Made by a program: the position numbers and the translations under genes. Under the pieces are notes generated by a model. It worked only from the letters and a program-made list of their open reading frames with translations. It was not told the DNA's origin and ran no database searches. This document shows positions 2,844 through 27,775 of a stretch of DNA of 64,000 nt, piece by piece (within the stretch, counting starts at the first letter, position 1; the number at the start of each line of letters is the position of its first letter). Origin of the DNA: a virus; the IMG/VR virus record IMGVR_UViG_3300025120_014916, positions 1-64,000 of that record; one strand, written 5' to 3'.

Positions 2844-4238
2844 TTACTTACCTGTTATTTCTTTCCATTTTGATTTTAACATGTCTTTTGTTCCTGTGTT
2901 CTTACTTTCTAATATTTGTATAGCAGATAATTCTGATGGATCATCAATGACAGTTATTTTTGATTTTGCGCAATCAATTCTTACAGGAAAAAGTATTCCG
3001 TCCTTACCCGCTCTATTTTTTGCAACAAAAAGCCTACCTGCACCCGTTGCTTTTTCGAGTTGTTTTCTAGATAAAGAAACGACAACATCAGCGACCATTG
3101 CCTTACCATAAGCTTCTGACATGCTGTCTAGGCCTACAACTTCTTTTTCAGAAGCCTCTCTATTTGCCTGTGATGCAGTCCATACAGGAATTTTCATTTC
3201 CATTGCTAGGTTTCTTAATTCTTCATATATCAACTTTAATTCATGTCTTAATGAGTCATAACTTCTAGTTGATCGCATAATATCAGCATAGTCTATTATT
3301 ATCAAACTAGGAATAAAATCTTTCATTGCTAATTTTTCTAAATGATTTCTAATAGTCATAACGCTAGCTGAACCGGTTGGATATTCTTTGATAATTAAGC
3401 GGCCAAATTTATTATCATTATACATACTTAAGACTTCTTCTTTTCTGTCCTGAACTTCAGAAGATGATATATCACATAAGTTACTATCATATCTTACACC
3501 TACCGCGGTTTCTGTTAACTCAAAAGTATAATGAACTACGTTTTTTCCTGCCTTTAAAGCTGCAGCTCCTACATTGACAAGCCAGTGAGATTTACCTACA
3601 CCAGTCGGTGCTGTGATTACTCCTATCTCTCCTCTTGCTAAGCCTCCATTTAAAACATCTTTTTTATCCAGCTGGGGTATTCCTGTCGGGCATGTAATCC
3701 TTGTAAGTTTTGTGAATCTTGCTTCGTAGTCTTCAAAGAAAACATGACCGGTTGTTGACTTTGCGCCTTTTGCCAGTGCGTCTTTCATAATACTTAATAC
3801 AGACTCGTAATTTTCATTACTAATTGCTAGCACGGATTCTTCAAGTGCCTGCTTTAAAACCTGCTTTTTGCAAAAGTCTAGTGCTTTTTCTTTAACATAC
3901 TTTAGATCACCTAGGTTTGGAGAGCTTTTTAATCTTGAAAGAAATTCAATAACTTGTTCTCTTAGTATGACATCATTACCTGTTGTCAGTTCTTCTCTAA
4001 TAATAGAAACAAGAAGTTGTCGTGTTGGAAAGTTTTTGTACTTGTTGTGAAAGCCAAAAAATCTTGTGCCTAAGTACTGAAGATATTTGATTTCAAAGTA
4101 ATCAGCTGTCATTACTTCCATCATCTGGCTTGCCCAAGTATGATCTGTTAGAAGGGCTTGAAAAATTCTTTCTTGAAAATCTTTGCCGTATTTTGAAAAA
4201 TACGTATTTTGTTCTGTTGCTGTCATGTATGCATTCAT
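2844..4238 (-). CDS. Replicative DNA helicase, DnaB/T4 gp41-like
   Basis: This is the hexameric helicase that unwinds the fork and recruits primase. The 464-residue protein has a helical N-terminal domain (about 1-170) and a RecA-fold ATPase. Walker A is APTGVGKS near 210-217 and Walker B is LIIIDYADIM near 312-321. TASQANREA is the DnaB-type sensor/arginine segment, followed by the conserved YGKAMVADVVVSL. T4 gp41 is of similar size (about 475 aa). The ATG has AGGA with five-base spacing. It is followed at 14 bases by the upstream exonuclease gene and sits in an exonuclease-helicase-reductase run. Confidence 0.92.
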   Translation of the reverse strand: MNAYMTATEQNTYFSKYGKDFQERIFQALLTDHTWASQMMEVMTADYFEIKYLQYLGTRFFGFHNKYKNFPTRQLLVSIIREELTTGNDVILREQVIEFLSRLKSSPNLGDLKYVKEKALDFCKKQVLKQALEESVLAISNENYESVLSIMKDALAKGAKSTTGHVFFEDYEARFTKLTRITCPTGIPQLDKKDVLNGGLARGEIGVITAPTGVGKSHWLVNVGAAALKAGKNVVHYTFELTETAVGVRYDSNLCDISSSEVQDRKEEVLSMYNDNKFGRLIIKEYPTGSASVMTIRNHLEKLAMKDFIPSLIIIDYADIMRSTRSYDSLRHELKLIYEELRNLAMEMKIPVWTASQANREASEKEVVGLDSMSEAYGKAMVADVVVSLSRKQLEKATGAGRLFVAKNRAGKDGILFPVRIDCAKSKITVIDDPSELSAIQILESKNTGTKDMLKSKWKEITGK

Positions 4239-6448: not shown

Positions 6449-7225
6449 TTATTCCATCAAATCTGCAAATGCATCATCTAAACTTCCGTAAGATCCTGAC
6501 TTGTCTTTTGTTTTAGTATCATTGCTAGTATCAGTAGTTGATGAACGTTCAGTGCCCGTATCATCTTCTTCATCACCTGCCAACCAATCATTAATGATTT
6601 TGCTTAGCTCATCATATGACTTAAGCTGGAAAATACTTTCTACGTCAGGAAGATTATCCATCCACTCTTTTGCTTGTTTTGTACTCGAAGCTAGCTTAGT
6701 TTCTCTACCTCGAGGAGTTACTTCTGTCATTGCCCATTGTTGGCCTGGATTTTTACTGCAAACAACATTAATATCTCTACCGGTCGTAGGATCAGTAATA
6801 TCTCCGTAGTCTTCATCGAGCATTAATGCTAAAAGCTTTTGATAAACTGTCTTACCAAATCCCCAAAGTTTTACGCCTTCGCCCTCTTCTCCTCTTACTA
6901 CACATGCGGCATAAACTCTCATTTTTGGATACAACTTCTTTGCCATTTCATAGCTTTCTTTTGTACCTTCATCACGAAGCTTATTGATCAATTCCTGAAT
7001 TGGATCCTTTTTGCCAAATTGAGACGGCGCCAAGAGGCCTCTTTGACCGGGAATATTATAATAAAACATCATTTCTTTAAAAGGCTGCCCATCATTATCA
7101 GGAAAGCTTAAAAGACGAACTGTGTGTTTTTCACCTTCTACCGGTTTCCACATTGAGTTCCTGCTGCTGTTATTGCCGCTTAGTCTGTCTAGTTTACGTT
7201 TAATAGCATCAAAATCGATTGCCAT
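6449..7225 (-). CDS. Single-stranded DNA-binding protein, T4 gp32-like
   Basis: This protein coats single-stranded DNA at the fork and organises recombinase and helicase loading. The N-terminus MAIDFDAIKRKLDRLSG is a basic cooperative segment. Next comes the OB-fold core with KHTVRLLSFPDNDGQPF and YYNIPGQRGLLAP, then YAACVVRG and GKTVYQKLLALM. The C-terminus is a flexible Ser/Thr/Asp-rich linker ending in an acidic tip (SLDDAFADLME), as in gp32. The zinc-binding His/Cys set of T4 gp32 is not seen. I chose ATG at 7225 because TTGGAG lies six bases upstream; an in-frame TTG at 7237 falls inside that Shine-Dalgarno region. It has its own promoter and terminator, fitting high expression. Confidence 0.87.
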   Translation of the reverse strand: MAIDFDAIKRKLDRLSGNNSSRNSMWKPVEGEKHTVRLLSFPDNDGQPFKEMMFYYNIPGQRGLLAPSQFGKKDPIQELINKLRDEGTKESYEMAKKLYPKMRVYAACVVRGEEGEGVKLWGFGKTVYQKLLALMLDEDYGDITDPTTGRDINVVCSKNPGQQWAMTEVTPRGRETKLASSTKQAKEWMDNLPDVESIFQLKSYDELSKIINDWLAGDEEDDTGTERSSTTDTSNDTKTKDKSGSYGSLDDAFADLME

Positions 7226-7284
7226 GATTATCTCCAATTTTTTAATTTTTAATTTGCAATAGTTATTTTTTTTATTGCTTAAGC

Positions 7285-7313
7285 ATTATACCTAAACAGT
7301 ACTCATTATACAA
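7285..7313 (-). promoter_or_regulatory. sigma70-like promoter for the SSB gene
   Basis: Minus-strand TTGTAT (7308-7313) and TATAAT (7285-7290) are separated by 17 bases. A leader of roughly 50 bases follows, holding a weak GCAAT/ATTGC hairpin. Another TATAAT-like hexamer lies 15-20 bases upstream. Confidence 0.5.
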
Positions 7314-7339
7314 ATTAATTATAAAAATATTAACAATCT

Positions 7340-8659
7340 TTAACTTCTTGTTCTACCGGTGGTTTTTAATTTCCAGTCTTGTAATCTTTGAAGATCTTCT
7401 TTGAGCGTCATTAACTTTTTTTGTTGAGCTTTTGTTGGTGACTTTAAAGAAGTTGCATAGCCGCCAACTGCATGTTCTTCGACATCTTCTAATTCTTCTT
7501 CATCTAGATCAGAATATAGGTCTAGATCTTCTTCTAAGTCTTCATCTATCCCATAATACGTAGATTCGCGTACGTTTGCTGCAATAGCTTTGTCTATCAT
7601 TGATTCTAAATTACTAGTTGTTATTTGGGATTTGGCTGCATCAACTGTTGCACCAGCAACATCTGCGATTGGTGATTTTCCGGTTTCTATTGCAGTATAA
7701 AATTCGCCTAATCGGGACATCGATCGGACGGGGTGTGTTAAGATTGCGAGGAAAATCGGACCTCCCTTATCTATGGCTTCACTCATTTTGCTACTTTCAT
7801 CTTTTTCTTTTTGCCCAAGAATAAAGTCAAACATTGCCTTAATCATTGTTGCAAGCTTACCTGTCAAGTCAAGCGCAAATCTTTCCCAAGGCACAGTATC
7901 AGCTACAAAACCAGCAATTGCAGTTGTGAGATTTGTCCCTGTTTCAGCAGCTGCTAGAGCAACAGGACCGCCAACAACGCCGGACGACGCGAACACAGAA
8001 TCATATGATTGAAATGCAGTAGTTATAAAAGTCTTTATGTTGTGAAGTAGATCTTCAAAGTGATCTTCTAGTTCTGCTCTTTCTTTTTCATCTAGACTAT
8101 TAACAACATTAATAATTTCTAGCCATGCTTCGTCATTTTCGCTAGATATTGCCTCAGCAAATGTATTTTCTTCAACACTGGGGACTAATTCAATAATATC
8201 ATCTGTCAGTTGTTTGAAACTACCGATACCCGAAACAAGCATCATGCTGCCAGCAATAGTATCGATAAAAGGTATTGATAATAAAGTGCTTTTTCCTGCA
8301 GCTTTTAATGCCCGGGCGCCATATTTTAATCCTGCGGCTGCTGTATCTAGTATCTCCCAATCTTCGTTAATTGCACTCAACGTTTCGTTTAATGAATATC
8401 CTGTGTTGTTTCTAACTCGGTATTTCAATATATTTTCAGGCATTAGATCTATTTCCTCTTCTGATTCTTCTGATTCTTCTGATTCTTCTTCTATGTCAAT
8501 TTTAACTTTTTTACTTCCTGCCCATGAGCTATATGAGCTAGAAGCTGAATCTGTCATTCCACCGGTGGAGCCTGCGTAGTAAGGTTGTTTTCCTTTAATA
8601 TGCGGTGCGTCTCCTCTTCCAGACGAAGGTGTTAAGTTAATTTCTTTTAGTTTTTTCAT
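7340..8659 (-). CDS. Unknown protein with acidic repeat and hydrophobic helices, possible virion protein
   Basis: I do not recognise this family. The N-terminus MKKLKEINLTPSSGRGD is basic and is followed by a Gly/Ser/Tyr-rich linker and an acidic EES repeat (about residues 52-65). The central part has several hydrophobic stretches, for example STLLSIPFIDTIAGSMMLVSGIG and GGPVALAAAETGTNLTTAIAGFVADTVP, that could insert in membranes or pack as helices. A long acidic segment and a basic C-terminus (ending KLKTTGRTRS) follow. The ATG at 8659 comes five bases after the polymerase stop with no clear Shine-Dalgarno, so re-initiation is likely. An in-frame ATG at 8686 with a weak GAG is an alternative. 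Virion or ejected protein is a guess from the LKE site near the N-terminus. Confidence 0.65.
   Translation of the reverse strand: MKKLKEINLTPSSGRGDAPHIKGKQPYYAGSTGGMTDSASSSYSSWAGSKKVKIDIEEESEESEESEEEIDLMPENILKYRVRNNTGYSLNETLSAINEDWEILDTAAAGLKYGARALKAAGKSTLLSIPFIDTIAGSMMLVSGIGSFKQLTDDIIELVPSVEENTFAEAISSENDEAWLEIINVVNSLDEKERAELEDHFEDLLHNIKTFITTAFQSYDSVFASSGVVGGPVALAAAETGTNLTTAIAGFVADTVPWERFALDLTGKLATMIKAMFDFILGQKEKDESSKMSEAIDKGGPIFLAILTHPVRSMSRLGEFYTAIETGKSPIADVAGATVDAAKSQITTSNLESMIDKAIAANVRESTYYGIDEDLEEDLDLYSDLDEEELEDVEEHAVGGYATSLKSPTKAQQKKLMTLKEDLQRLQDWKLKTTGRTRS
8463..8489. repeat. Three tandem copies of GATTCTTCT
   Basis: The 9-base unit occurs three times in a row inside the gene at 7340-8659 and encodes the Ser-Glu-Glu repeats of its acidic tract. 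The count could vary by slippage without shifting the frame. Confidence 0.8.
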
Positions 8660-13527: not shown

Positions 13528-16500
13528 TTATTTCTTACCTGTTATTTTAATACCTTTATTAGCTTGTTTTCTAAACTCAAACTCATCTTCTTTAAAGAAG
13601 CTTTCATATGAATCGCCAGATACGTTTTTCATTATATCACCAACATTATAAAGTGGTGCTCTATTGTATCCACTGTGGTCTAGACCAGGAGCTATATCAT
13701 GAATTACATCAAATGAAAAGCTTATCTTGCATCCGATAGGAGCTCTGCTATTATGATCTATTTCCCATGGAAAGTTATCTAACCAATTAAAAGAAACAGA
13801 TCCGATTGTTCCTGCTAAACCTCTACCGGAGGTTGATTCATAAGCTTTTGCAAATGGGTTGTTGAAAGAATCCATAAAGCTTGATTCTTGTGACTGATAG
13901 AGTGATCTTATCAAATCAATGGCTGGAGCTGTTCCTGTTGAATTTGCAAAACCTTTAATCAAGTTAGAGTTTAGTCCAGAATCTGCTAACGGAGAAATTA
14001 CACCGCCGGCTCCTGCTAATAATAGTCCAAACTCTAGTGTATCGATTAACGTCTTATTTGGCATTTGATATATATCAGAAGGCATGCAATACAAAACTAG
14101 ACTTTGGGCATCTGCGGGTATTGAAAAGTCGACAATTTCAACTTCATAAGTCACCTTAGTTTTACTAGTTTTTTCTAAATCTTTTGAAAATTTAATACCT
14201 TCATAAGAGCTTAAGTTCTTTTTTACTATTTTTACTTTAATTGGCTTTTGGATCATTAAGCGTTTACCAACCATTACATCATTACCGCCAATGATTTTAT
14301 ATCCTTGATTATAGTTTGAATTAAGATAAACAGTATAGTTTTTGTGTGGACCTGAAAGCTGATCGCCAATCGATTCTGCTATAGATTGGCCGGCATTCTG
14401 AGCAGGTGTAGTTTTGTCAAATTTATTTCCAGCTATTGCTGAATTAATCTCTACGTTAGGATCTTTTATTCTATTTAAAACGAAACCCAATGTCAAAGGA
14501 TTGACAAAACCATTTTTTAAAAAGTTTGTTGCTGTTGAGCTAAGACCCGACAGTGCTTTTTGTCCAAAACTGCCAAGTTTGGCAGCTTGGTCTTTAGTAC
14601 CTTGCAAATTAAAAAATTGAATTGGAGATCCATACACAAGTGCTAACAATGAAACACTGTAATCTTTTATTTTATTTATTACATTTTGTGCTTCGTAATC
14701 AAATGCATTTGTTATAATCGCAGCAGGCGAACTATCTGCTGGTAGAGGTTGTACATCGCCATCTCCAATTCCAAACATTCTAGCTAGATTAAACTTTGAA
14801 TAATTTGATTTTATTATATCACCTACTCTCATTCTTACTAACGGTGATGCACCCAGTACTTGGGTATTTGGTTGAAGAAACTTGCTAGTTACTCCGCCCT
14901 CCAAACTTTGGCCTACCATGGTTCCTTTTGTCCACTGTGGATAGAGTAAAGTTACAAACTTATTAATCTTATACCACATTGTGTTAAAATCTTGTTTAGA
15001 AGTTGCAACAACTGTGAAGCCTATTGATATACTTCTAGTGGTACTTTCGTATATTCTTACCGGATCTAGTCTTCCGTAGCCTGGAAACGTACTATAGTTG
15101 GGATTGATAGTGTCAGTAAGTGAATCTAAAAATGCATGAAAAGATATAATTTCATTAGTTCTAAGATCTTGAAAATAAAACGGTACGTATTCAGCATCTA
15201 ATTTGTTTTCTAATGTTTCTACTACCTCTTTTGGTATTCTATTACTTGACCCGTCCATGTTTTTTGAAAAATAAGTTTGATCAACTAATTCAGAACCAAC
15301 CATTGCTGTGAAAGGATTAGGGCCCGAAACTATTTTATCCAATCTTCCTGCTGCTCTTATAGGATTAAGTGGTAATAAATATGCAGAAGGTACATCATTT
15401 TGTGACCAAGCTAATTGGTTTTGCCTGTAACCATTATCTTTTCTGCTCTTTCCCACTCTTGTCCCGGGTGAATCCGGCAATGAATCAACGTTTCTAGATC
15501 TTTTAAAAAATGCGTCATTTGATATATCTCCGCCGCCATATGCCTGAAATGATGCATCACCCACAGTTGCAATTGCATTCATATATCTTATAATGTTATT
15601 TGAGGCCATGGCAGATATAAAATTATTTATACTTTCAGAATCTATATCAGTTTGGCTAAGAAGATCTAAACTGTCAAATGTTTGATTTGCTGACTTAATT
15701 GCTGATCTAGATACAGCTAGCCAAAAACCAGGTGACGATGTAACTTGTTTTGATATTTTTATACTTTCAACTGTTGGTTTTTCCCTTTTGGCAGTATTAT
15801 CTACATATTCAATACCGAATAGAACTTTTAGGCCTCTATCGAAACTAGACTTGTAAGGATATCTAGTTGGAACCAATACAGAATTTTTTATATAATCTAG
15901 TTTTAAATTGACTAGTTTTCTTGCATGTCCTAAAAGTGGCTCGTGAAGAAATTCATTAAAATTATCTTCAATTTTACTGTATACATCGCCATTTAGATCT
16001 GCTATACTAGTCAAGTGTCTAATTATGCTGCTGTAAATTCGCCTTGATACCTCATCAAGCGCGTAAAGAGACAATGCGGCTTGATACTTGTGAAGTTTAT
16101 GATTTTTACCTGAAAAATGCATTCCTGAATTATATGTTGCGCCGTAAGAACTTCTAGTGTCTACATGACCAATAGCCTCACCTCTTCCAGCTCTAATGCT
16201 CTCATCTGACGCTTCTTTTTGTGGAAACCCGGTTGCGTTTTTTGCTCGATAAGCTTCCGCCTGAATTCCTGGCGCACCAATCTCGTTTGGTCTGCCTTTT
16301 ATTAAGCTACTTCTTAATTCCCCGGTCACCATACTAGCTTCTAGTTCTTCTGGGTTTAAACTTTCTCCCGGGGTATCACCATTATCAAATCCACTGACTT
16401 TCATTAGTAAACTAGCACCTAAATTTTTAAGCTGTTCTAGTCTGACTAGTGTTTCTTCATCTAGATGAGAATGAGAACCAAACTTATTGTTAATTTTAAG

Positions 16501-17154
16501 TTTTTCTTTTTGATCATGGGTATCCTGTGATTCGTTTTTACTTACAAAGATTTCTTTGTTTGGAATATTACCAAATCTAGACTTGATTAATACTTCATTG
16601 TGCACAGCTTGTACAACCTTGTTATCTTCACCTTCTTGATGAGTTACTTCTCCATAGTCATTTGTACCGGTACCTTCAATTGAATTTAAAAGTTTATGCC
16701 CACTGTTTTCATCATTGTCTAGACCTATTTTATCTACTACATCTTTAATATTTACAAATTGTCCGTTAGAGTAGACATTAAAGTTTGAAGCCAATTCAGT
16801 ACCGGGCGTTATATATATTTTTTCTGCGCCATGCTCACTAGATATTGCTAGATACTCGCCTCTATTTGTTGGTGCTGAGGCTTCATTTCCCGGGCTAATA
16901 GGATATACATGATCTGCTTCTTTAGATAAAAAACTTAAGTAGTCACCAAGTATTCCTGCCGGGTCAGCACTGTCTAAGTCTAATAAAGTTTGTCCGGAGT
17001 TAGGATCTATTTTAATATCTTCATTACCGCCTAAATGTAAAGAATTTAGATTACCAAGACCGTCAGGCGTAGGCTCCGAATCATGAGAAAAAGATATACT
17101 ATCTTCAGGTATTGCATTTTTTATAAAAAAATCTTTTAAGGTCTCTCTAGACAT
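13528..17154 (-). CDS. Very large tail/baseplate structural protein
   Basis: The 1208-residue protein (from ATG at 17154) has no catalytic motif that I recognise. The N-terminal third is polar and Asn/Asp/Ser-rich. The middle has helical segments (for example LVNLKLDYIKNSVLVPTRYP). A well-ordered region around GRLDPVRIYESTTRSISIGF and NTMWYKINKFVTLLYPQW follows, then a beta-rich C-terminus with KTKVTYEVEIVDFSIPADAQ. Adjacent LysM and hub-like genes suggest a baseplate role. ATG at 17154 is chosen because it overlaps the preceding stop (ATGTCTAG) and GAGA lies upstream; a longer in-frame start at 17190 would run deeper into that gene. Confidence 0.62.
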   Translation of the reverse strand: MSRETLKDFFIKNAIPEDSISFSHDSEPTPDGLGNLNSLHLGGNEDIKIDPNSGQTLLDLDSADPAGILGDYLSFLSKEADHVYPISPGNEASAPTNRGEYLAISSEHGAEKIYITPGTELASNFNVYSNGQFVNIKDVVDKIGLDNDENSGHKLLNSIEGTGTNDYGEVTHQEGEDNKVVQAVHNEVLIKSRFGNIPNKEIFVSKNESQDTHDQKEKLKINNKFGSHSHLDEETLVRLEQLKNLGASLLMKVSGFDNGDTPGESLNPEELEASMVTGELRSSLIKGRPNEIGAPGIQAEAYRAKNATGFPQKEASDESIRAGRGEAIGHVDTRSSYGATYNSGMHFSGKNHKLHKYQAALSLYALDEVSRRIYSSIIRHLTSIADLNGDVYSKIEDNFNEFLHEPLLGHARKLVNLKLDYIKNSVLVPTRYPYKSSFDRGLKVLFGIEYVDNTAKREKPTVESIKISKQVTSSPGFWLAVSRSAIKSANQTFDSLDLLSQTDIDSESINNFISAMASNNIIRYMNAIATVGDASFQAYGGGDISNDAFFKRSRNVDSLPDSPGTRVGKSRKDNGYRQNQLAWSQNDVPSAYLLPLNPIRAAGRLDKIVSGPNPFTAMVGSELVDQTYFSKNMDGSSNRIPKEVVETLENKLDAEYVPFYFQDLRTNEIISFHAFLDSLTDTINPNYSTFPGYGRLDPVRIYESTTRSISIGFTVVATSKQDFNTMWYKINKFVTLLYPQWTKGTMVGQSLEGGVTSKFLQPNTQVLGASPLVRMRVGDIIKSNYSKFNLARMFGIGDGDVQPLPADSSPAAIITNAFDYEAQNVINKIKDYSVSLLALVYGSPIQFFNLQGTKDQAAKLGSFGQKALSGLSSTATNFLKNGFVNPLTLGFVLNRIKDPNVEINSAIAGNKFDKTTPAQNAGQSIAESIGDQLSGPHKNYTVYLNSNYNQGYKIIGGNDVMVGKRLMIQKPIKVKIVKKNLSSYEGIKFSKDLEKTSKTKVTYEVEIVDFSIPADAQSLVLYCMPSDIYQMPNKTLIDTLEFGLLLAGAGGVISPLADSGLNSNLIKGFANSTGTAPAIDLIRSLYQSQESSFMDSFNNPFAKAYESTSGRGLAGTIGSVSFNWLDNFPWEIDHNSRAPIGCKISFSFDVIHDIAPGLDHSGYNRAPLYNVGDIMKNVSGDSYESFFKEDEFEFRKQANKGIKITGKK

Positions 17155-17353
17155 TGTCGTTCTCTTCAATATACTGTTTAATCGATTCACTTAGATTTTT
17201 AATATTAATTTTTTCGACTTTTTTTTGTAAATTAGAAACTAATTGTTCTATAAATATATTAATCTCTTTTTCTTCTTCTTCACTAAGATCAGTAGCAATA
17301 TAATTTTTTGTTTTTTGTAATGATTCTTTTATTTCGTCTATGTTGATTTTCAT
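17147..17353 (-). CDS. Small acidic helical protein between tape-measure and baseplate genes
   Basis: The 68-residue, highly charged protein begins MKINIDEIKESLQKTKNY and has heptad-like spacing (IFIEQLVSNLQKKVEKI) suggesting a coiled coil. I do not recognise it. It fits exactly in the gap after the 683-aa gene (8 bases) and its stop overlaps the next start, so it belongs to the tail operon. A chaperone or small tail component is plausible, but this is inference from position only. Confidence 0.6.
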   Translation of the reverse strand: MKINIDEIKESLQKTKNYIATDLSEEEEKEINIFIEQLVSNLQKKVEKINIKNLSESIKQYIEENDNV

Positions 17354-17361
17354 TATATTCC

Positions 17362-19413
17362 TTATTTAGTTTCTGTTTTAACAATTTTTTGCGGCTCGCC
17401 GGCGATAATAAACTCACCATCTAACATTATCCTACCTAATTCAGACTTGTTTACCATAAGTATTATTTCTTTATTAGAATTTGTATTTTGATTATAATTT
17501 GTCAGTGCCGTTGTTAGTTCCGCCAATTTTCTGTTTGTTTCTTCATTGTTGGTACCAGCTGTCGATGCGTTTAGTATTGCTGTACTTTCAACTTCTTCAA
17601 GTTTTGCAACAATAGCTGAATTACTGTCAGCATTTGATACCGGTTGAGCTGTGTTTGTGCCACCGGTAGTATTTTGAACAGGTGTAATTGCCGCATTCTT
17701 ACCAAAAAGAGCTCCTGATTTGCTTAGCAAAGCAGCTGCTCTGCTTCCATAAGTTGTATTAGCGACTGTCGGAGGAACTTGTGCTTGAACAGACGGGCTA
17801 GCATTTTTAGAAGGATTCTGTTTTTCAGAAACTGCACTAGCTCCTTCTGTCAATAATTCTAGAAATTCATGTACGCCTATTCTTGTTTCAGTATCTATTT
17901 TTGTGCTAGCTGACTTAGCAATACCGCCTTGAGTCTGAACAGCAAATTTCATACCTTCCACAGCAGTTACTTGATCAGTTAAATCTATGTTATCTCTAAT
18001 ATTAGCATTAAGCTTAGAATATTCATCTGAAGCATTAAGCAGATCTTGCTTAAGCGGATGAAGAGCTCTTGTTCTCATATAATTTATAGCCTTAGCTGAA
18101 TCGTTAGCATACTTTGGTGCTAATTCCAATTGATCTGTTAACGCCTGTGCAGCAGGAGTTTTATCAGCTGCGATTTTATCAATTTCATCAATTAACCCAT
18201 GCTCGTCAAACTCTCTACTTGTGTCCAACATGGCTCTAAATTGCTCTCTACCCATGCTTAAGCCGGCTGCCATTTGCCTTTGTTCAGCTTTTCCTAGCGA
18301 TTCGAATTTTTCTTTTGTAAAGTTTCCTGCCAAAAACATTCTTCTCAATTCAGGCAAGAATTTTTCTTGTTCTTCAGATGCTAGATACATTAATTGTTGT
18401 GCATCTAAGTTAACGGCGCCGCCTGTGATTTGAGATATTAGACCGCTTGTTTCTGCAGATGATCCAAACTCTTGAAATTTGTCTAGAACACCGGTAAAGC
18501 TATCATATGTCTGTCCTAATTGTCCTAAGGTTGCTGCTATTCTCGTTGCTTCTTCTGCAGTCACATCACCCATTCGCTGCGTATCATTTGTTATCTGCAC
18601 AGCGTTTTGAGCAATTGATTTTAAAGGTACTCCGGTCGACTTTGCTAATCCTTGTGAAAACTTTGCTATGTCATCTAGCATAGTAGTTTGGGCTTTACCT
18701 GTAGTGTTGATTTGAATCTCAATGTTTTTAGCAACATCTGCAGAAGAGATGCCTAGTGCTTTTGAGTATAAAGGTAATTTGTAGAGAGTTTCTTCGTCTA
18801 ACTGATTAATATACTGTGAATGTTGATCAACTAAACGACCTAGAACTCTTTCTGACTCGTTAAATGCTTCTGCTTCATCCTCGAAATAAGCACTGACAGC
18901 ATTATTAGAAAAGCCTAGTTTTTTAGCCATATCTGTGCCGGAATTACCAACATCGTAGTAGTATTTTTGCATACTGTCTAATCTATCTATGACTGCTTTT
19001 GAAGAGCCGGTAGCTTTGTCTAGATCGATATTTAAACCACCGTATCCTTCCTGTATTGCATTATACTGATCTAGCACCGGTGTTGCCATAGTTGATAGTG
19101 CTTCAAGGCTTCCGTCATAAATCTCAACTGCTTTTGCTGGTAAAGATATAGCTTTTGTAAAAGCAGTCATCTGTTTTTTTAATTGACTGTCGATATTTTT
19201 AGTTGATTCGGAATCAAGATTAATTGATGTGTCGATTTGTCTAGACTCTGTCGACGACCTATCATCTTTCATTTTACTCGGATCAATTGTTTGGTCTCTG
19301 TTATCCGGAACAAACTCTCCAGATTTGGCCACACCATAGTCTGTTAATGCTTTCTTAAAAGCACCTTCTAGCATGTTTTGAACTGACGATTCTTCTTCCC
19401 ACCAATTAGCCAT
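17362..19413 (-). CDS. Putative tail tape-measure protein (gp29-position)
   Basis: The 683-residue protein is mostly helical and Gln/Ala/Asp-rich, with repeated helices such as EEATRIAATLGQLGQTYDSF and EQEKFLPELRRMFLAG. It has a polar, Asn/Thr-rich linker and a short beta-like C-terminus (IILMVNKSELGRIMLDGEFI). It lies just below the overlapping assembly-gene pair (19446-20505) and tube gene, the usual position of a tape measure. Tape measures span the tube and set tail length; T4 gp29 is 590 aa. The start has AGGAGAGGTAA before ATG. It lacks obvious transmembrane helices. An alternative is a helical baseplate/tail-tip protein. Confidence 0.5.
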   Translation of the reverse strand: MANWWEEESSVQNMLEGAFKKALTDYGVAKSGEFVPDNRDQTIDPSKMKDDRSSTESRQIDTSINLDSESTKNIDSQLKKQMTAFTKAISLPAKAVEIYDGSLEALSTMATPVLDQYNAIQEGYGGLNIDLDKATGSSKAVIDRLDSMQKYYYDVGNSGTDMAKKLGFSNNAVSAYFEDEAEAFNESERVLGRLVDQHSQYINQLDEETLYKLPLYSKALGISSADVAKNIEIQINTTGKAQTTMLDDIAKFSQGLAKSTGVPLKSIAQNAVQITNDTQRMGDVTAEEATRIAATLGQLGQTYDSFTGVLDKFQEFGSSAETSGLISQITGGAVNLDAQQLMYLASEEQEKFLPELRRMFLAGNFTKEKFESLGKAEQRQMAAGLSMGREQFRAMLDTSREFDEHGLIDEIDKIAADKTPAAQALTDQLELAPKYANDSAKAINYMRTRALHPLKQDLLNASDEYSKLNANIRDNIDLTDQVTAVEGMKFAVQTQGGIAKSASTKIDTETRIGVHEFLELLTEGASAVSEKQNPSKNASPSVQAQVPPTVANTTYGSRAAALLSKSGALFGKNAAITPVQNTTGGTNTAQPVSNADSNSAIVAKLEEVESTAILNASTAGTNNEETNRKLAELTTALTNYNQNTNSNKEIILMVNKSELGRIMLDGEFIIAGEPQKIVKTETK

Positions 19414-19445: not shown

Positions 19446-19727
19446 TCAAGAATTCTTTGACAACATATCTTCATATTCTCTGAGTTTGCTCATATTTTCA
19501 TGACCCGCATCTTGATTCTGCTTGCCAGATATTGCTTCGTTTCTTTGCTCAATATCTTGCACTATACGGGTGATAAACCACTTGCGATAAGCAACCGGTA
19601 GATTTTTCACCTCTGAATATGACATATTGAGGTGGCGCTGGAGCACGAAAGCTTCTTCTAAGAAACTAACCCTCCAGCTATGTACTGGGCCAAAAAAACT
19701 CTGAAGTAATCGGAAGTTTGATTTCAT
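19446..19727 (-). CDS. Small helical tail-assembly protein, overlapping ORF of a chaperone-like pair
   Basis: Counted from ATG at 19727 this is 93 residues, beginning MKSNFRLLQSFFGPVHSW and rich in helix formers (SYSEVKNLPVAYRKWFITRIVQDIEQRNE). That style matches T4 gp51/gp26-type baseplate-hub assembly proteins, which are short and helical. It overlaps the end of the zinc-ribbon gene by 50 bases in another frame (+1 relative). No Shine-Dalgarno precedes the ATG, and the overlap holds a seven-T run (19692-19698 on the complementary strand). It may therefore be made as a frameshift extension of the upstream protein. It precedes the tape-measure candidate. Confidence 0.65.
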   Translation of the reverse strand: MKSNFRLLQSFFGPVHSWRVSFLEEAFVLQRHLNMSYSEVKNLPVAYRKWFITRIVQDIEQRNEAISGKQNQDAGHENMSKLREYEDMLSKNS

Positions 19728-20505
19728 TTGTATGCCCACAATTTTTACATTCAAAACTGTGTGACATATCCATGCCCGGTTCATTTTTATTTATAAACTT
19801 TCTTAAGGCTTTTGAATCGAATGCCGGCATATTCATTACAAAATGTTTAATTTTGTTCTTATCTCTAATGCCCTCAATTGATAATATTGAGTATTCTAAA
19901 AAAGAAGTTATATTGTTTTCAACTTTTGTTTCTAAATGCCTAGAAGTAAATTTTGCCGCGGCAGCTCTATCTTTATCATCTTTGTCAGTTAAAAATTTAA
20001 AAGTTACTTTTTTCTTTGTAACTGGAAGAAAAAATTCAAATTCATTTTTGCCATTCTCCACAGGAGGTATTTCTAAACGCTTAATCCCTAGATTATCTAG
20101 TTTTGCTGTGGCTTTGTTTTTATAAGAACAACTTTCGCATTCACCCGTATAAGGGTATTCAGGCCCGTATCCAGTAATTCTAATAGAAATCATTAATGCG
20201 TTTCTGTCACCAGATATCATATCAGAAGGATCAAACTTTGTGTTAACAACACAAGATCTAATTAAGTTTGTTACGACTGTGCCTTGTTTTAAAAGCGCTT
20301 GTGATGCTAGAATATCTTCTTCTTTTGCAGTCATTGCTTTTATTTGGACTGATTCTAGCCCATACAAATCAGAATCCGGATCGTATATTACACCTCTTGA
20401 GGGGATTGGAACTAGTTCGTACGGTACTTCCCATCCAAATTCGTCTTTCATTACGTTGCTTTTCATGACATGCTGTGACATGTCTTTTCCAAATAGTTCT
20501 GACAT
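19678..20505 (-). CDS. T4 gp26-like baseplate hub protein with zinc ribbon
   Basis: The 275-residue protein begins with DEFGWEVPYELVPIPSRGVIYD. It then has a first Cys pair, ECESC, and a C-terminal pair, FECKNCGHTNEIKL, ending SEFFWPST. This order (SKG/PSRG loop, helical middle, Cys ribbon and FFWP-like end) matches the T4_baseplate family (gp26 type) as I recall it. Its role is in hub assembly, before tail tube growth. GAGG precedes the ATG at good spacing. It lies between tube and tape-measure genes and its end overlaps the next ORF at a slippery T-run. Confidence 0.68.
   Translation of the reverse strand: MSELFGKDMSQHVMKSNVMKDEFGWEVPYELVPIPSRGVIYDPDSDLYGLESVQIKAMTAKEEDILASQALLKQGTVVTNLIRSCVVNTKFDPSDMISGDRNALMISIRITGYGPEYPYTGECESCSYKNKATAKLDNLGIKRLEIPPVENGKNEFEFFLPVTKKKVTFKFLTDKDDKDRAAAAKFTSRHLETKVENNITSFLEYSILSIEGIRDKNKIKHFVMNMPAFDSKALRKFINKNEPGMDMSHSFECKNCGHTNEIKLPITSEFFWPST
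19692..19698 (-). promoter_or_regulatory. Candidate programmed frameshift site (T7 run)
   Basis: On the minus strand GAG TTT TTT TGG CCC reads in the zinc-ribbon gene 14 bases before its TAG, while the overlapping ORF reads AGT TTT TTT GGC CCA. A +1 or -2 slip on the T7 run with tRNA-Phe in the P site would fuse the two ORFs. Long-tailed phages commonly use a frameshift in the two genes just before the tape measure (lambda G/GT at -1; Mu at -2). Confidence 0.4.
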
Positions 20506-20588: not shown

Positions 20589-21077
20589 CTAGAATTGTAA
20601 AACGCAGTTGTCAAATGTTAGAGTTAAATCAATCATCATTATTTCATTACCGCTATAGTCTAAGCTTCCAAAGTTTGCTTGCTTAATAAACGCACCCTTT
20701 ATATCCCATAACTCAACTACAGTTCCAATTGGATCCAAAAGTTTTAATTGAATGTCTCTTTTGTAAAAGTCAGCGTAACCTGCACGACCTGAAACAGACT
20801 CATAATGCGTTCTGATCCATTCCATAACTTGTTGCGCGCCACTAGGAGCAATCGGGTCATGAAGTTGTACAGATATATCACCCATATCAAGCTTTCCAGA
20901 TATTTTACGATAACTATTAATATAGTCTATTTTCATGTCTTGAAGCGTGAAGTCAGGGCGTTTTGTTGTCTTAGCTAAAAATGAGTCAATACCTTCAATA
21001 GCAAGAACCCATCTATAATTTCTTTTAGGTTCAAACTTGTTGGGTAGCATGTCTGTTACTGATAGTGTTTCTGCCAT
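20589..21077 (-). CDS. Tail tube protein, T4 gp19-like
   Basis: This 162-residue protein polymerises into the inner tail tube through which DNA passes. It shows gp19-family features: KFEPKRNYRWVLAIEGIDSFLAKTTKRPDF, then SGKLDMGDISVQLHDPIAPSGAQQVMEWIRTH, then the C-terminal DLTLTFDNCVLQF. T4 gp19 is 163 aa. AGGAG lies before the ATG, with a TATAAGAA motif (21096-21103) upstream. It follows the first sheath gene, as 18-19 in T4. Confidence 0.95.
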   Translation of the reverse strand: MAETLSVTDMLPNKFEPKRNYRWVLAIEGIDSFLAKTTKRPDFTLQDMKIDYINSYRKISGKLDMGDISVQLHDPIAPSGAQQVMEWIRTHYESVSGRAGYADFYKRDIQLKLLDPIGTVVELWDIKGAFIKQANFGSLDYSGNEIMMIDLTLTFDNCVLQF

Positions 21078-21130: not shown

Positions 21131-24100
21131 TTAAAGAAGTTCTGAACCTGCATTTGTAACAACAAAGTCTAAAGCTACAAATTCTACTGTTCTTGTAGGT
21201 TGCAAGAATATTTTACCTCTGATCGTATTGTTTTCAACGTCAGCTTGCGTAGTCGTAGTCGTATCAATGACCACCTTATACCTATCAACACCACTTTGTG
21301 ATTGAATTCTTTGCAAAATAGGATTAACAAGCGCAGAGAATTTTTCTAAAGTTTCTACTCTATTAGGTTCAAATAACAAAGTATTAGCAATATTTCTAAC
21401 TTTTCTTCTAACATCAATAAGCAGCCTTCTAACGTTAACTCTATCCAATGCAGATGCGCCTTGGAGTAATGTTTTTTGTCCCCATACCGTAATACCGGTG
21501 CCTGGAAATGCAGTGATAGGATTAATATCTGCATCATAAAGATCATCTAAATTGTCTCTATTAAGTGTAACAGATGACATTTCTATAGAAGACAATGCGC
21601 CTCTTGAAAAACCAGCAGGAGCAGTCCATGGATGACCAACTACGTCATTTAAGCCGTAAGCACCCAGTACAGCAACTGAAGGTGGGACTTGAACAAATGC
21701 GCCTGTTTCCGGATCAACAGTTGTTAAGTCAGGAAAGTATGCAGCTGCAAATGAAGAGTCCAAAACGCGGTTTTTAAAATCATTAACTGTATTTAATACG
21801 TGAGGATTTTGCACTGACGCAGTAATCACTGTATTTACTGTGTCCCGCTCTTCAATATCCATGATGTAAAGTGAGTCAAATCTAGACTCAACAGCAGATA
21901 TTGCAAAGTCTGTTACAGAAGGATGCCGGATACCTGGGATTGCAAGTAATTTTATCTCTGCATCTGTTTTTGATCCCATAACATCTACAGCTTTACGATA
22001 AGCAGCAACTGTTGGACCGGATGTCTCTCCCTGCGCTGTATCTACCATTTCTCGTCTAACAGCGTTATTTGTTAACTCATACTTGTCTTTATTGAAAATG
22101 TTTGTACCGTCAAATCCGCCTTGCATAGGCAAGGTAAACTTGGCAAATTTTCTATTTGAAACTGTTTGCAAGTCTGTCGCTTTAAATTTTCTAGTTTTTG
22201 CATCTTCATCTGCAGAAATACTTCCTTGACGCATATATTCAGCACTAGTCCAACTACCTGGATTTGCTCTGGTGTTTGAACCGGTTATAACCTTAATCTT
22301 TTCTAAACTAAACCTATTGTTGTTAAATCTGTCGCAATCTAAAACTGTACCACCAGTTAAGTCTGCTGCTCCAGCATTGTTTCCAATAGCAAAAGGTGTT
22401 ACTGACTTTCTATGATTTGGAAAATGTTTGCTATAAGTTCGAATAGACTCGTCAAATGCTGCTGTTTTACTTGGATCTAAAGGTGTTGTAAATTGTTCAG
22501 TTTTCATACCCCAATATAACCCGGTATCTATAACTTGATTCAATCCTGTACCTTTTGCGACCTTTTTTCTCATTGGGAAGGGAGGCTCAACAACACGTTG
22601 AATTAAATCAGTTGTCGCGTAAACAGATCCGTTGTCTCCTGACAGTAATGAACCGCTAGAGTTAAGGTGTCTAGGCCCTCTAAATCCAAACGGAAGTGCT
22701 TCTTTGGGTACTTCTTTCTTTTTTAATGCATTTGATAATTCAACCCTAACATATCTAGACCGGCTTGGATGAACACCATCGACAATAAGTTTTTGAGATT
22801 CTAGATCATTATCAAAGTTAAAGAATATATGCTGATCACCTATTACTCTACCAATATACCTGTCTGCACCCGGGTCTAAAGAAAGACCTCTGTGGGATTC
22901 TAAAACCTTTTTGACATCGTCAGTATCATTAAACTTTCTAATAATTAGGTCAAAGCTACCATACGCTTCTGTTCTATATACTAAGTTTTCAATTGACGCC
23001 TTATATCTTTGTCCGCCCGACTCACCACTATCTAATGCAACAAGCTTGAAAAGGTCATACCCGCCTGGGGAATCAAAACCTTGTGATATCACGAAAGGTG
23101 ACTCTGCATGTGTGAATCTGTCTTGAAAGTCCTCATAATCAGCATGCTCAGCAGTTGTTGCTCCGCCTCTTACCTGAGAACCAGTTAATAAGAATGCAAT
23201 ATCTAGTTTTCCACTGTTTTCAGATCCTGCAGTTAGTGCGCCGCTACCCGTCACGTTTGCAACAGTTGGGTATATATCGTATTGTCCGTAGAGCAAGTGT
23301 CCTTTTTCTTCTATCTTAAGTGGGTCTTTGTTAAATACATCGACAAAATAGCTAGTTGAAGTCATATCAAAAGATGCTGTTACGATTGTTGGATTTGATG
23401 CATCGCCTTTGAAACCGTTCATTAACATAACAAAGTCTTGTGATGATAAGTCAACTGAACCGGTTACACCACCTTTTCGACCCATAAGATCACCAGAAGT
23501 AGCAATTGCAGTGTCTGTGACGCCTGGCGCGCCTGGTGCAGCCATGTTGTTTCCACTAAGATGTAGTATAACGCCACTTGGTGCTAAAAGAACACCACGA
23601 AGAATAGGAACAGCGCCGCCGGCCTCACCAGACAATGCACCGTCATTTGCCATTGTACCACCAGTATCATCAATTCGAATTGGATTTCCGTATGCGCCGT
23701 TACCCGCCAAACCTGGGTTTCTTGCCTTTATTGTAATTTTTCCGTCGCCCGTGCCTTCTTCAAATGTAATACGACTTATAAGATTTGCAACGTCAGCACC
23801 CTGTGTTGTTAATGCTTGGTCGACGCCTGTATTGATTAGCGCTAACAATTGAGTTCTAACTGTATTAGCAACAGATGGGGTTGATAAGGTCAATCCGCTT
23901 GTACCTACTCCAATTGTTCTAGCAGCAGCTGATCCAGCTGCTTGAGCTACAGCGCCAGTAGAATCACCGGTATTTAGCTTAATATATAACGCTGCTGCTC
24001 CACCTGGCCCAGGAACACCAAAGTGAGGAATAGATATCTGAACTTCACTATTCTGGGCACCAACTAGTAAGTTAATTGCATCAACTCTAGTTGCAAATGT

Positions 24101-24583
24101 ATTTGCTTGTTGTATTCCAGCCTCAGAAAAGATTGTGCTTCCGTTCGATTCAGACATGAATGTGCCTAAGAAATATGTACGACCTTTAACACCTGCTGTC
24201 TCATTTGAGAATGGGTTGTTACCTAGGAAGCCGCTGTCTTGAACTATTTTGTCGCCTACTGAGAATCCCGCGTTTGTTACAATGCCTGTTCCCGAGTCTC
24301 TCTTTTTTCCGTCTCCAATCCCCAATACTCTAATATAAGTTCCAGCTCGTGATGATCTCATCCACTCGTTAACAGCAAGAGGGCCAAACTTTTTACCGTC
24401 AGTAGCGCCAAAAATTGTAACAAAGTCTGAAAACGATCCAAATGTCAAGGGGACAAATGCTGGGCCTTCAACTGATGTACCGATGACACCTGCTGGGACA
24501 CCTTGAGGAGTTTGTGGAGTTGGACCAGAAAGATCTATTTCTCTTGTGCTGACTCCAGCTGATTTGAATGTTAATTCTGCCAT
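21131..24583 (-). CDS. Tail sheath protein, T4 gp18-like (paralogue 1)
   Basis: This 1150-residue protein forms the contractile sheath. Conserved sheath parts are the N-terminus (AGVSTREIDLSG, PAGVIGTSVEGPAFVPLTFGSF) and the C-terminal block (APAGFSRGAL, WGQKTLLQGASALDRVNVRRLLIDVRRKV, GKIFLQPTRTVEFVALDFVVTN). T4 gp18 is 659 aa, so nearly 500 residues of inserted, Gly/Ala/Thr-rich surface domains lie in the middle. The start has GGAG eight bases upstream and a TATAAGAA box before it. A second sheath gene lies immediately upstream at 24620-27775. Confidence 0.93.
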   Translation of the reverse strand: MAELTFKSAGVSTREIDLSGPTPQTPQGVPAGVIGTSVEGPAFVPLTFGSFSDFVTIFGATDGKKFGPLAVNEWMRSSRAGTYIRVLGIGDGKKRDSGTGIVTNAGFSVGDKIVQDSGFLGNNPFSNETAGVKGRTYFLGTFMSESNGSTIFSEAGIQQANTFATRVDAINLLVGAQNSEVQISIPHFGVPGPGGAAALYIKLNTGDSTGAVAQAAGSAAARTIGVGTSGLTLSTPSVANTVRTQLLALINTGVDQALTTQGADVANLISRITFEEGTGDGKITIKARNPGLAGNGAYGNPIRIDDTGGTMANDGALSGEAGGAVPILRGVLLAPSGVILHLSGNNMAAPGAPGVTDTAIATSGDLMGRKGGVTGSVDLSSQDFVMLMNGFKGDASNPTIVTASFDMTSTSYFVDVFNKDPLKIEEKGHLLYGQYDIYPTVANVTGSGALTAGSENSGKLDIAFLLTGSQVRGGATTAEHADYEDFQDRFTHAESPFVISQGFDSPGGYDLFKLVALDSGESGGQRYKASIENLVYRTEAYGSFDLIIRKFNDTDDVKKVLESHRGLSLDPGADRYIGRVIGDQHIFFNFDNDLESQKLIVDGVHPSRSRYVRVELSNALKKKEVPKEALPFGFRGPRHLNSSGSLLSGDNGSVYATTDLIQRVVEPPFPMRKKVAKGTGLNQVIDTGLYWGMKTEQFTTPLDPSKTAAFDESIRTYSKHFPNHRKSVTPFAIGNNAGAADLTGGTVLDCDRFNNNRFSLEKIKVITGSNTRANPGSWTSAEYMRQGSISADEDAKTRKFKATDLQTVSNRKFAKFTLPMQGGFDGTNIFNKDKYELTNNAVRREMVDTAQGETSGPTVAAYRKAVDVMGSKTDAEIKLLAIPGIRHPSVTDFAISAVESRFDSLYIMDIEERDTVNTVITASVQNPHVLNTVNDFKNRVLDSSFAAAYFPDLTTVDPETGAFVQVPPSVAVLGAYGLNDVVGHPWTAPAGFSRGALSSIEMSSVTLNRDNLDDLYDADINPITAFPGTGITVWGQKTLLQGASALDRVNVRRLLIDVRRKVRNIANTLLFEPNRVETLEKFSALVNPILQRIQSQSGVDRYKVVIDTTTTTQADVENNTIRGKIFLQPTRTVEFVALDFVVTNAGSELL

Positions 24584-24619: not shown

Positions 24620-27600
24620 TTACTCAAAACTAACACCTGAATTTGTAATAATAAAATCCATTGCAATAAATTCTATTGCTCTTGTTGGTACTAATATTAT
24701 TTTACCGTTAAGTCTATTTTGTTCAACATCTAATTGCGTGTTATTTGATGCATCCATAACTACTCTAAATTGATCAACACCTTGTTGAACCTGAATATTT
24801 GATAAAGCTGGCGTAACTTCTGCAACAAATCTATTTCTTGTGCTAGGCGTATTTTGTTCAAATACTATTCTATTTGCAATATCAGAAACTATCCGTTTTA
24901 CTTCTAGGAGCATTCTTCTAACATTTACTCTGTCAAGTGCTGATCTAGATTGTTGAAGTGTTTTTTGTCCGAATATAACAAAAGGACCGGTAGGAAAGTT
25001 TGCAATAGGATTAATTCTTGCTTCGTATAGGATGTTTCTATCTTCAGTATTTAATCTAACTTCTGTATTAATAACTTCATTTAGTGCGCCTCTATTAAAT
25101 CCTGCAGGAGCAAACCACGGATATGCAATTGCGTCGTTATACGCTAATGCACCTAGTGCAGCAACTGACGCCGGCATATTGACTGCATCACCATTGATTC
25201 TGTCGTTTTTAATAACATCAGGAAAATATGTTGCAACATAATTGTTGTCAATAGCACGACCATCAAATTGTTCCACGGTTTTTCTAACATTTGGTCTTGT
25301 TGTACTATCATCAAATATTGTGTTCAGATTGTCATCGTATGCGTTGATATCCATTATATATATTGCTTTACTATATTCTTTTGCCAATTGGCCTATATGA
25401 TCTGTTACATAATTGGAACGAATGCCCGGAGTTGCAATAACATTGACTCTTGAAGCTAGCGGATCAGTTATAATCTTTCCAGCAGTTTTATAAGATGAAA
25501 TAATATTATTGTCATCACCTTGACCTGACGTATATCCAGTACCGTTACTAGAATTAAATATTTTAAGAGGCCCATGGTCAGATCCAGCTGCTTTTCCGCC
25601 GGCTGCTGAATCATTTGAGCTCGCCTTGTCATTCATAAGTCGCATATCACGATCAAGAATATTTAAACCGTCAAACCCACCATACATAATGTTTGTAAAT
25701 TTAAGATAATCTGTAAATCTATTAAAATATTTATATTCTGTTGATGCCATCAATGAAGCAAATGTTAATCTTCGCGTAAAGCCTACATCAACAACTGTGC
25801 TGTTTGGAGAAACTAGCTCTGCGTTTCTAATATATGCTGCTTCTCTCATATGTTCGTTTGCAGATCCTGTTATTTCATTTTTAAGTGCATCTTCAAGATT
25901 TGCTGTTGCGTCAGACTGATTATTTAAACACACACGCGCTAAAGTAAATTTATTATTATTAAATGCATCTGCACCCGAACCTGTAACAAGTGTGTCTAGT
26001 TTTTGAATTCCTAGTAACTTTGAATAACTTTCAATAATTTTATTGACCCCACCGTATCCGTTTGGATAAAGTGCAGGCTGACCAATACTTCCAGTTAATC
26101 CTATTCTTTGTGTTTTAACACCCCAGAAATATCTATTATCTGAAAGTTCTAAAGAGCCTGGTTGTCCTGTAAACGTTGGACTGGATGCAACCTTTCCTTT
26201 TGTAGCTTTAAAAGTAAAAGGAATCGGAGGTACGATTGAATGTGTTATTTGTGCATCATTCGCAGTACCCGCCGCAACAAATGATAGTCGTGAACGATTT
26301 GAACCCATGGAAAGTACAGCAGTACCGTCAGTTAGATTGTCATTTAACTTAAGAACAGGTAGGCCTCTAAACCCAAAAGGAAGCGAACTTTTTGGAATTA
26401 ATCCATCTTCTACAGCCGAATTCATTATTATTCTAACATATGAAGACCGGTTTGGTCGCATACCAGATACAACAGCTCTTTTTTCTGATTCAGTGGCAGC
26501 ATCAAAGTTGTAGTAAGCTTTCATGTCACCTATTTTTTTACCTACATAATCGTCGCTGGCTGGATTTAAAGTACACAAGGAATACATTTCAAGAATGTTC
26601 ATATCCCGGTCATTGTCTCGAAGGTCTCTAACTAGAACAGAAAAAGTACCGTACGGATCTTTTATATTCGTTGATCTTCTAATGTTTGATATACTAATTT
26701 TTACTCTTTTGTTGCCTATTTCACCGTCATCTAACGCTTCAAAGTGAAAAAGATCGTATTCGTTTGCACCAAATGGCTGTGATATAAATGAAGTTGTTCT
26801 AGCTGTTTGATATCTTGTTTTAAAGTTTCCAAAAAGATCTCTAAAAGACGTAGTTGAAAGACCGCTATTTGCACTAGTTCCTTCTGAACCTGATGCTATA
26901 ATAACAGAATAATTTGTAGCAGCTGATGGGTCATGCTTTACTTTTGCAATTTCAGATTCAACTGGAAAATCTAAATAGAGGAAATGCTGTGTTTCCTCAA
27001 ATCTATCTGGGTTTGTATTTAAAACTTTTGCAACATAGTATTCGCTGGTAGGATCAAGTGATGCTGTAACGATCTTTATTCCAGGTTTTCCTTCGTCAGA
27101 TGAAAACGAAGCACCTTGTGACGACGATATAACTAGTTTAAATGTACCTTGTATATCTGTTCCATTGTATGATTTAATTGCTGCGACGTCGTTAGTTGTA
27201 GACGTACCAGAATAACTAGCATCGTGGCTTAAAATTTCTATTCGTGAAGCTGTTGTTGGAAAAATTGCAGCACGAACAAGATTTACTTCGAGCGGATCAG
27301 GAAAAGAATTATTGTCTGTAAATCTTAAATCTCCAACACCTTCTTCAGACGCTAATACTTCGTGTGTTGCAGCAATAAATTGAACTGCGCCTCTATGCCT
27401 ACCTAATGTATCTGGCGCGCCGGCAAGTGTACCTTCTATAACATAGCCGGCGTTCTTAACAGTTCCTGCTAATTCTGTTGTCTGTATATCTGCAATTGAG
27501 TTGTTTGCGCCTGCTCCTAAAACTCTAATATATGTTAAAGCAGTCTTGTGCTTAAGAAAAGCATCAGCTGCATAAGGTCCGAATCTATCCGGATCCAAGG

Positions 27601-27775
27601 TGCCAAACTTAAATTCAAAGTCTGAAAAAGATCCAACTGTCACAGGCACAAAAGCAGGGCCCCTCTCAGCAGTCCCAATAACTCCACCGGGGACGCCTTC
27701 AATAGTTGTTTCTCTTGCACTTAGATCAATTTCTCTTTCAAAAAATCCGGGTGATCTGAATGTTTGTTCTTTCAT
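24620..27775 (-). CDS. Tail sheath protein, T4 gp18-like (paralogue 2)
   Basis: The 1051-residue protein is a paralogue of the sheath at 21131-24583. It shares SPGFFEREIDLSA at the start and GGVIGTAERGPAFVPVTVGSFSD soon after. The C-terminal block also matches: APAGFNRGAL, FGQKTLQQSRSALDRVNVRRMLLEVKR, GKIILVPTRAIEFIAMDFIITNSG. The middle regions differ strongly. Ahead of the ATG is GAGGAG. T4 has one sheath gene; two tandem copies suggest either mixed sheaths or a specialised copy, for example at a tail end. Which copy forms the bulk sheath is unknown. Confidence 0.92.
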   Translation of the reverse strand: MKEQTFRSPGFFEREIDLSARETTIEGVPGGVIGTAERGPAFVPVTVGSFSDFEFKFGTLDPDRFGPYAADAFLKHKTALTYIRVLGAGANNSIADIQTTELAGTVKNAGYVIEGTLAGAPDTLGRHRGAVQFIAATHEVLASEEGVGDLRFTDNNSFPDPLEVNLVRAAIFPTTASRIEILSHDASYSGTSTTNDVAAIKSYNGTDIQGTFKLVISSSQGASFSSDEGKPGIKIVTASLDPTSEYYVAKVLNTNPDRFEETQHFLYLDFPVESEIAKVKHDPSAATNYSVIIASGSEGTSANSGLSTTSFRDLFGNFKTRYQTARTTSFISQPFGANEYDLFHFEALDDGEIGNKRVKISISNIRRSTNIKDPYGTFSVLVRDLRDNDRDMNILEMYSLCTLNPASDDYVGKKIGDMKAYYNFDAATESEKRAVVSGMRPNRSSYVRIIMNSAVEDGLIPKSSLPFGFRGLPVLKLNDNLTDGTAVLSMGSNRSRLSFVAAGTANDAQITHSIVPPIPFTFKATKGKVASSPTFTGQPGSLELSDNRYFWGVKTQRIGLTGSIGQPALYPNGYGGVNKIIESYSKLLGIQKLDTLVTGSGADAFNNNKFTLARVCLNNQSDATANLEDALKNEITGSANEHMREAAYIRNAELVSPNSTVVDVGFTRRLTFASLMASTEYKYFNRFTDYLKFTNIMYGGFDGLNILDRDMRLMNDKASSNDSAAGGKAAGSDHGPLKIFNSSNGTGYTSGQGDDNNIISSYKTAGKIITDPLASRVNVIATPGIRSNYVTDHIGQLAKEYSKAIYIMDINAYDDNLNTIFDDSTTRPNVRKTVEQFDGRAIDNNYVATYFPDVIKNDRINGDAVNMPASVAALGALAYNDAIAYPWFAPAGFNRGALNEVINTEVRLNTEDRNILYEARINPIANFPTGPFVIFGQKTLQQSRSALDRVNVRRMLLEVKRIVSDIANRIVFEQNTPSTRNRFVAEVTPALSNIQVQQGVDQFRVVMDASNNTQLDVEQNRLNGKIILVPTRAIEFIAMDFIITNSGVSFE

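Follow-up and report, generated by a model that had tools for sequence, protein, structure and literature searches.

In this study we asked whether two overlapping reading frames, located between the tail tube gene and the putative tape-measure gene of a virus, encode two separate proteins or one protein and its frameshifted long form. The DNA analyzed was a stretch of 64,000 nucleotides, which we call the window. In the window the order of the genes on the minus strand is the tail tube gene, the gp26-like gene, ORF2 and the putative tape-measure gene. The same order, that is, tube, PF12322 gene, ORF2 and tape measure, recurs in annotated phages. The positions of these features are listed in Table 1.

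Table 1. Features of the chaperone locus in the window
Feature	Position	Strand	Description
Tail tube gene	20589..21077	-	gp19-like; phrog_4542
TAC-N	19678..20505	-	gp26-like, PF12322 (T4_baseplate / phrog_150 baseplate hub); 275 aa
Slip site TTT TTT TGG C	19689..19698	-	P-site TTT, presumably slow A-site TGG; GGC next after a +1 slip
T7 run within the slip site	19692-19698	-	
ORF2	19784-19446	-	112 aa, as called from ATG 19784
TAC-C	19449..19697	-	extension in the +1 frame (FFGPVHSWRVSFLEEAFVLQRHLNMSYSEVKNLPVAYRKWF...), with a weak resemblance to DUF6760; helical domain by prediction; stop at 19448-19446
Predicted fusion TAC-NC	19449..20505	-	352 aa; junction ...ITSEFF-GPVHSWR...
Possible stem-loop	19637..19678	-	GCUGGAG...CUCCAGC, ~11 nt 3' of the slip site
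Putative tape-measure gene	17362..19413	-	683 aa; assigned by position and by its homology with the gene that comes next to TAC-C in 7 relatives

The gp26-like ORF and ORF2 overlap by 107 nt. The gp26-like ORF ends with ...TCA GAG TTT TTT TGG CCC AGT ACA TAG, and the reading of the same bases in ORF2 is ...CAG AGT TTT TTT GGC CCA GTA CAT AGC TGG. A previous sequence-only reading of this locus had pointed out that the overlap contains a run of seven T, read as TTT TTT in both ORFs, and that a +1 or -2 slip would lead from frame 0 to the frame of ORF2. It had also noted that no Shine-Dalgarno sequence precedes the ATG of ORF2 at 19784. When we read both ORFs across the T7 run, these statements were borne out. 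As for ORF2 itself, the overlap and the T7 run stood as described, but the first ATG at 19784 did not hold as a meaningful start; the meaningful part of ORF2 begins at the T run.

Two other regions of the window should be mentioned here. Two adjoining tail-sheath-like genes of 1150 and 1051 aa (21131-24583 and 24620-27775, minus strand), both of which matched phrog_23 with E values of <1e-54, are a tandem sheath duplication. A protein of 1220 aa encoded downstream of the tape-measure gene (13528-17190, minus strand) gave no notable match in PHROG or Pfam.

Then the conservation of the site among relatives was analyzed. When IMG/VR was scanned with the gp26-like protein as the query, at least 598 relatives were recovered, and the best 80 were kept. 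We read 81 loci, namely the window, 78 of these best 80 relatives and two cultured phages found by tblastn, and in each of them the stop of frame 0 and the open stretch of the +1 frame were identified. ORF2 was in the same +1 frame in 80 of the 81 loci, which is not the arrangement of a -1 heptamer of the X XXY YYZ type. The sequence-only reading had stated that a frameshift would be refuted if close relatives lacked the T run; the site was retained in 80/81 loci, with ORF2 always in +1. These 80 loci form 40 clusters at 60% identity. The site sequence was TTTTTTTGGCC in 73 loci, TTTCTTTGGCC in 6 and TTCTTTTGGCC in 1. That is, the core of the site was TTTTTTTGG (73), TTTCTTTGG (6) or TTCTTTTGG (1), with CC next in every case. 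Microcystis phage Mel-JY01 and Flavobacterium phage immuto are cultured relatives, and immuto carries TTTCTTTGG. The TGGCC on the 3' side of the run was invariant, and the frame-0 stop was only a few codons past the slip site.

Runs of 7 or more T are not rare in themselves, since 14 were found on the minus strand and 47 on the plus strand of the window. The window contained a single copy of the 11-mer TTTYTTTGGCC. Of the 80 copies counted on both strands of the 80 loci (472 kb), 79 were at the slip site. In seven loci belonging to four clusters the T runs did not exceed 4 (TTTCTTTGG and TTCTTTTGG), and the same +1 arrangement was seen in them. As a separate observation, L059 (around 3460-3500) was the sole locus with TTC TTC TGG, and its extension is reachable only by a net -1 shift; this exception is explained either by a true loss or by a contig error of one base.

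The codon use at the site was also characteristic. The two Phe codons of the site were TTT in 79/80 and 74/74 loci. Elsewhere in the gp26-like gene, 523 of the 726 Phe codons were TTT and 203 were TTC, and the other conserved Phe columns were 59-94% TTT. Among the loci with a GC content of 0.44 or higher, the site was TTT TTT in 30/30, compared with 178 TTT and 81 TTC elsewhere. The naive probability of the codon choice at the site was ~1e-13 for the 40 cluster representatives with phylogeny ignored, and for this reason the value means only that the choice is far from codon bias.

In order to be translated as a separate protein, ORF2 needs a start codon. In 41 of the 80 loci, however, no ATG, GTG or TTG was present upstream of the run in the open +1 stretch, and in these loci a stop lying just 2-8 nt upstream of the run often closed the +1 frame. 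Among these 41 loci, 23 had no such codon for 90 nt on the 3' side of the site either, and in one locus, L048, the whole extension contained no ATG, GTG or TTG. The window has +1-frame ATG codons at -86 and -29. We next took, from 17 pairs of loci, the region bounded by the frame-0 stop and by the earliest codon that could serve as a +1 start, and counted the substitutions. The numbers at +1 codon positions 1, 2 and 3 were 74, 34 and 194, respectively; pN was 0.09, pS was 0.60 and dN/dS was ~0.08. These values indicate strong selection at the protein level. Since this region is under coding selection while it precedes any start codon, these comparisons indicate that its translation needs no separate start, that is, that it is translated as a fusion with the gp26-like protein.

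Two explanations that do without a frameshift must be considered against these results. One is that ORF2 forms an independent gene, initiated at ATG 19784 or at an internal codon and perhaps coupled in translation, and that the T run persists because it encodes Phe-Phe in both frames. The ATG codons at -86 and -29 of the window could in principle initiate ORF2, and some phages are annotated with a separate ORF. But the loci without an upstream start, among them L048 with no start whatever, and the coding evolution of the pre-start region lead us to reject an independent start of ORF2, and we regard this explanation as highly improbable. The other is that an AT-rich codon use yields TTT TTT by chance and that ORF2 is a chance ORF, with which the abundance of T7 runs in the window agrees. 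This explanation is refuted by the codon choice at the site, which departs from that in the rest of the gene, by the constant frame and by the dN/dS value, and its probability seems to be negligible. Thus, there is strong support for the proposal that a programmed frameshift leads to a fusion.

We therefore think it very probable that one gene gives both forms of a tail assembly chaperone by a slip at TTT TTT TGG C. Most ribosomes would terminate at the TAG at 19680-19678 and produce the short form, TAC-N, and a minority would slip by +1 at the site. In this slip, the tRNA-Phe in the P site would re-pair one base forward, from TTT to TTT, with the single Trp codon TGG waiting in the A site, probably as a pausing codon. 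The reading would then go on with GGC CCA... and give TAC-NC, the form with the helical C-terminal domain.

The direction of the slip can be considered from the variants of the site as follows. A -2 slip reaches the same frame and gives the same fusion with one extra Phe (FFFG), the T7 run permits re-pairing two bases back in 73/80 loci, and such a slip has a precedent in phage Mu (PMC5009743). In L026, of which the site is TTC TTT TGG (TTCTTTTGG), however, a -2 slip would put the tRNA-Phe on TCT with a mismatch in the middle, whereas a +1 slip pairs perfectly. The TGG C that constantly follows the run also fits a pause at the A site for +1. The six TTTCTTTGG loci are equally compatible with both directions. 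Taken together, a -2 slip seems to be unlikely, and the earlier choice of +1 or -2 is refined in favor of +1 as the most likely direction on the basis of the site variants. Slippage of RNA polymerase on the T7 run, by which the frame change would already be present in the mRNA, is suggested by the homopolymer of 7 T in 73/80 loci. But the +1 arrangement is kept in the seven loci without a long T run, which disfavors slippage on the transcript, and such slippage would not need the invariant TGGCC. We consider this explanation very unlikely, and the ribosomal +1 slip is favored.

As to elements that might stimulate the slip, no Shine-Dalgarno-like stimulator upstream of the site was conserved among the loci read, and no conserved downstream RNA structure was detected across ten loci (z -2.8 to +0.5). 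The stem GCUGGAG/CUCCAGC was kept only in the closest relatives, L002 and L003, and in L003 a paired C-G was changed to U-A. It is possible that this stem functions as a local stimulator. No phage-encoded tRNA was found within the 64-kb window.

To clarify the identity of the proteins, TAC-N was compared with the T4 gp26 family (PF12322), and the match was 60 bits (E 3.5e-16) against a gathering cut-off of 24.5. TAC-N also matched phrog_150. The TAC-N and TAC-C halves were folded separately. The AlphaFold2 model of TAC-N had a pLDDT of 87.5, and its best match among solved structures was 3klu, YqbN, with Z 5.5 and an rmsd of 3.8 over 86 residues; the Z of the next row was 2.6. A Foldseek search with the TAC-N model gave nothing significant. 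YqbN has been described as a phage tail assembly chaperone (PMC9603447). Both gp26 and gp51 of T4 are PF12322 proteins, and gp51 consists of PF12322 plus a C-terminal extension. The profile alignment of the fusion with gp51 crossed the junction and continued to the end of gp51 (E 1.6e-4, probability 50%), and TAC-C alone showed a weak profile match to the gp51 tail (probability 6%). Helices were predicted in TAC-C. Its model matched nothing significant in the PDB, and a tblastn search of the phage collection with ORF2 gave no match. PF20546 (DUF6760) matched 14 of 33 TAC-C members, the best with 8e-4. We do not place TAC-C of the window in PF20546, because its score falls well short of the curated cut-off.

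The 136-kb record of the window, which is possibly incomplete, and each of 5 long relatives contained one PF12322 match, whereas T4 contains two. That is, the two-gene chaperone of T4 (26 + 51) was seen neither in the record of the window nor in the 5 long relatives, although these records may be incomplete. The following features of a G/GT-type chaperone were found. The overlapping ORFs lie between tube and tape measure (the latter being positional in the window), ORF2 needs a frame change, as judged from the 41/80 loci without an upstream start and the dN/dS of 0.08, and a conserved slippery sequence is present at the overlap in 80/81 loci. Since its position, homology and frame arrangement, and tentatively also the modelled fold, agree with this type, the gp26-like pair is probably a G/GT-type chaperone of the PF12322 branch, consisting of TAC-N and TAC-NC. 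The analogy to tail chaperones drawn in the sequence-only reading is thus supported by the position of the gene between tube and putative tape measure, by the homology to T4 gp26/gp51 and, tentatively, by the YqbN-like fold of the model. If the lambda G/GT proteins are taken as the example, TAC-N would be the form that coats the tape measure, and the role of TAC-C would be to recruit the tube protein.

Furthermore, we examined the wider family. In the cyanophage-type loci found with the Syn9 protein, namely L106 (Syn9) and L122-L201, the extension was in the -1 frame at TTTTTTC in 80/80. The gene of Syn9 annotated as 'gp51-like' (L106, about 7176-7390) is a part of this -1 extension and starts at an internal ATG. 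PA5oct and Atu_ph07 possessed the same -1 arrangement. In GXN1 (L084), SP-15 (L085) and LIS04 (L086), the extension was in +1 but without TTTTTTTGG, and CC CGA TT was common to the three; when viral contigs were scanned with the protein of SP-15, SP-15 itself was the sole hit. The window-type site was present in L114-L117, which are binned with Flavobacteriales, and in L118 from an unclassified bin, and the site of L119 was TTTTTTTTC. With -1 in the cyanophage type, +1 here and two genes in T4, one homologous pair therefore shows three solutions. We consider it rather likely that UUU-YUU-UGG-CC, with a pause at a sense Trp codon, is a previously undescribed +1 signal kept across a large T4-related contractile-tailed branch, the homologues of which use -1 (UUUUUUC) or two genes (T4). 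According to this idea, the three forms would be interchangeable ways to set one protein ratio, and the 26/51 pair of T4 would come from a frameshifted ancestor.

According to a review, long-tailed phages share G/GT frameshifting as a conserved trait, 'except T4', and there are +1 and -2 variants in other phages (PMC5009743). As cited in PMC10885494, T4 has been published as using two chaperone genes, 26 and 51. The sequence-only reading had been aware of no frameshift in T4-like phages at this gene pair. Part of the frameshifting in the wider T4-like group may have been described before, since the cyanophage-type relatives carry the -1 TTTTTTC. Vladimirov, Gautam and Davidson reportedly identified the T4-like chaperones in 2022, under a title that refers to a mechanism other than frameshifting. 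PMC12846349 cites Vladimirov 2022 for poly-T -1 signals in T4-like phages, and the -1 form of cyanophages may already have been described.

The present results add to the T4 gp26 family a branch in which frameshifting evidently occurs, in the less common +1 direction and at a simple, highly conserved site. Since this branch lies within the gp26 family, a switch of direction and mechanism in one family becomes directly testable. The results also correct the annotation of public records, in which ORF2 is unannotated, begun at an internal codon or labelled as a separate protein, and the 'baseplate hub' label of the gp26-like gene should be changed to tail assembly chaperone.

Comparing the locus with known systems, lambda G/GT and other frameshifts of phage tail assembly chaperones likewise give a short chaperone and a rare long form between the tube and tape-measure genes, and in lambda, as proposed here, the slip occurs near the end of the first ORF. 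The slip of lambda is -1, whereas the slip proposed here is +1 at TTT-YTT-TGG-CC, and the probable chaperone is a member of the T4 gp26 family (PF12322). A +1 shift in structural or tail genes occurs in Listeria phage PSA (PMC9024508) and in haloarchaeal HSTV-2 (PMC5009743), which we liken to the present locus by description, not by sequence. T4 gp26 and gp51, reportedly TAC-N and TAC-NC (Vladimirov, Gautam and Davidson 2022), resemble the present pair in being homologous PF12322 proteins, with the extension of gp51 placed as TAC-C. In T4, however, each form has a full gene of its own and no frameshift takes place, whereas the branch of the window has one gene and a slip site. In Kyanoviridae, gp26 and the 'gp51-like' protein (e.g. 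of Syn9) also represent one PF12322 gene of which the C-terminal extension is in another frame and adjoins the next tail gene. The shift there is -1 at T TTT TTC in 80/80 loci, in contrast to the +1 of the branch of the window.

Known +1 sites are CUU UGA C of E. coli prfB and CUU AGG C of yeast Ty1. These sites resemble the present one in that YUU is in the P site, a codon that is slow, or here presumably slow, is in the A site, and the shift is +1. The present site differs from both in having the sense codon UGG in the A site and no conserved upstream Shine-Dalgarno-like stimulator. The CTT variants of the slip site recall the CUU of prfB and Ty1.
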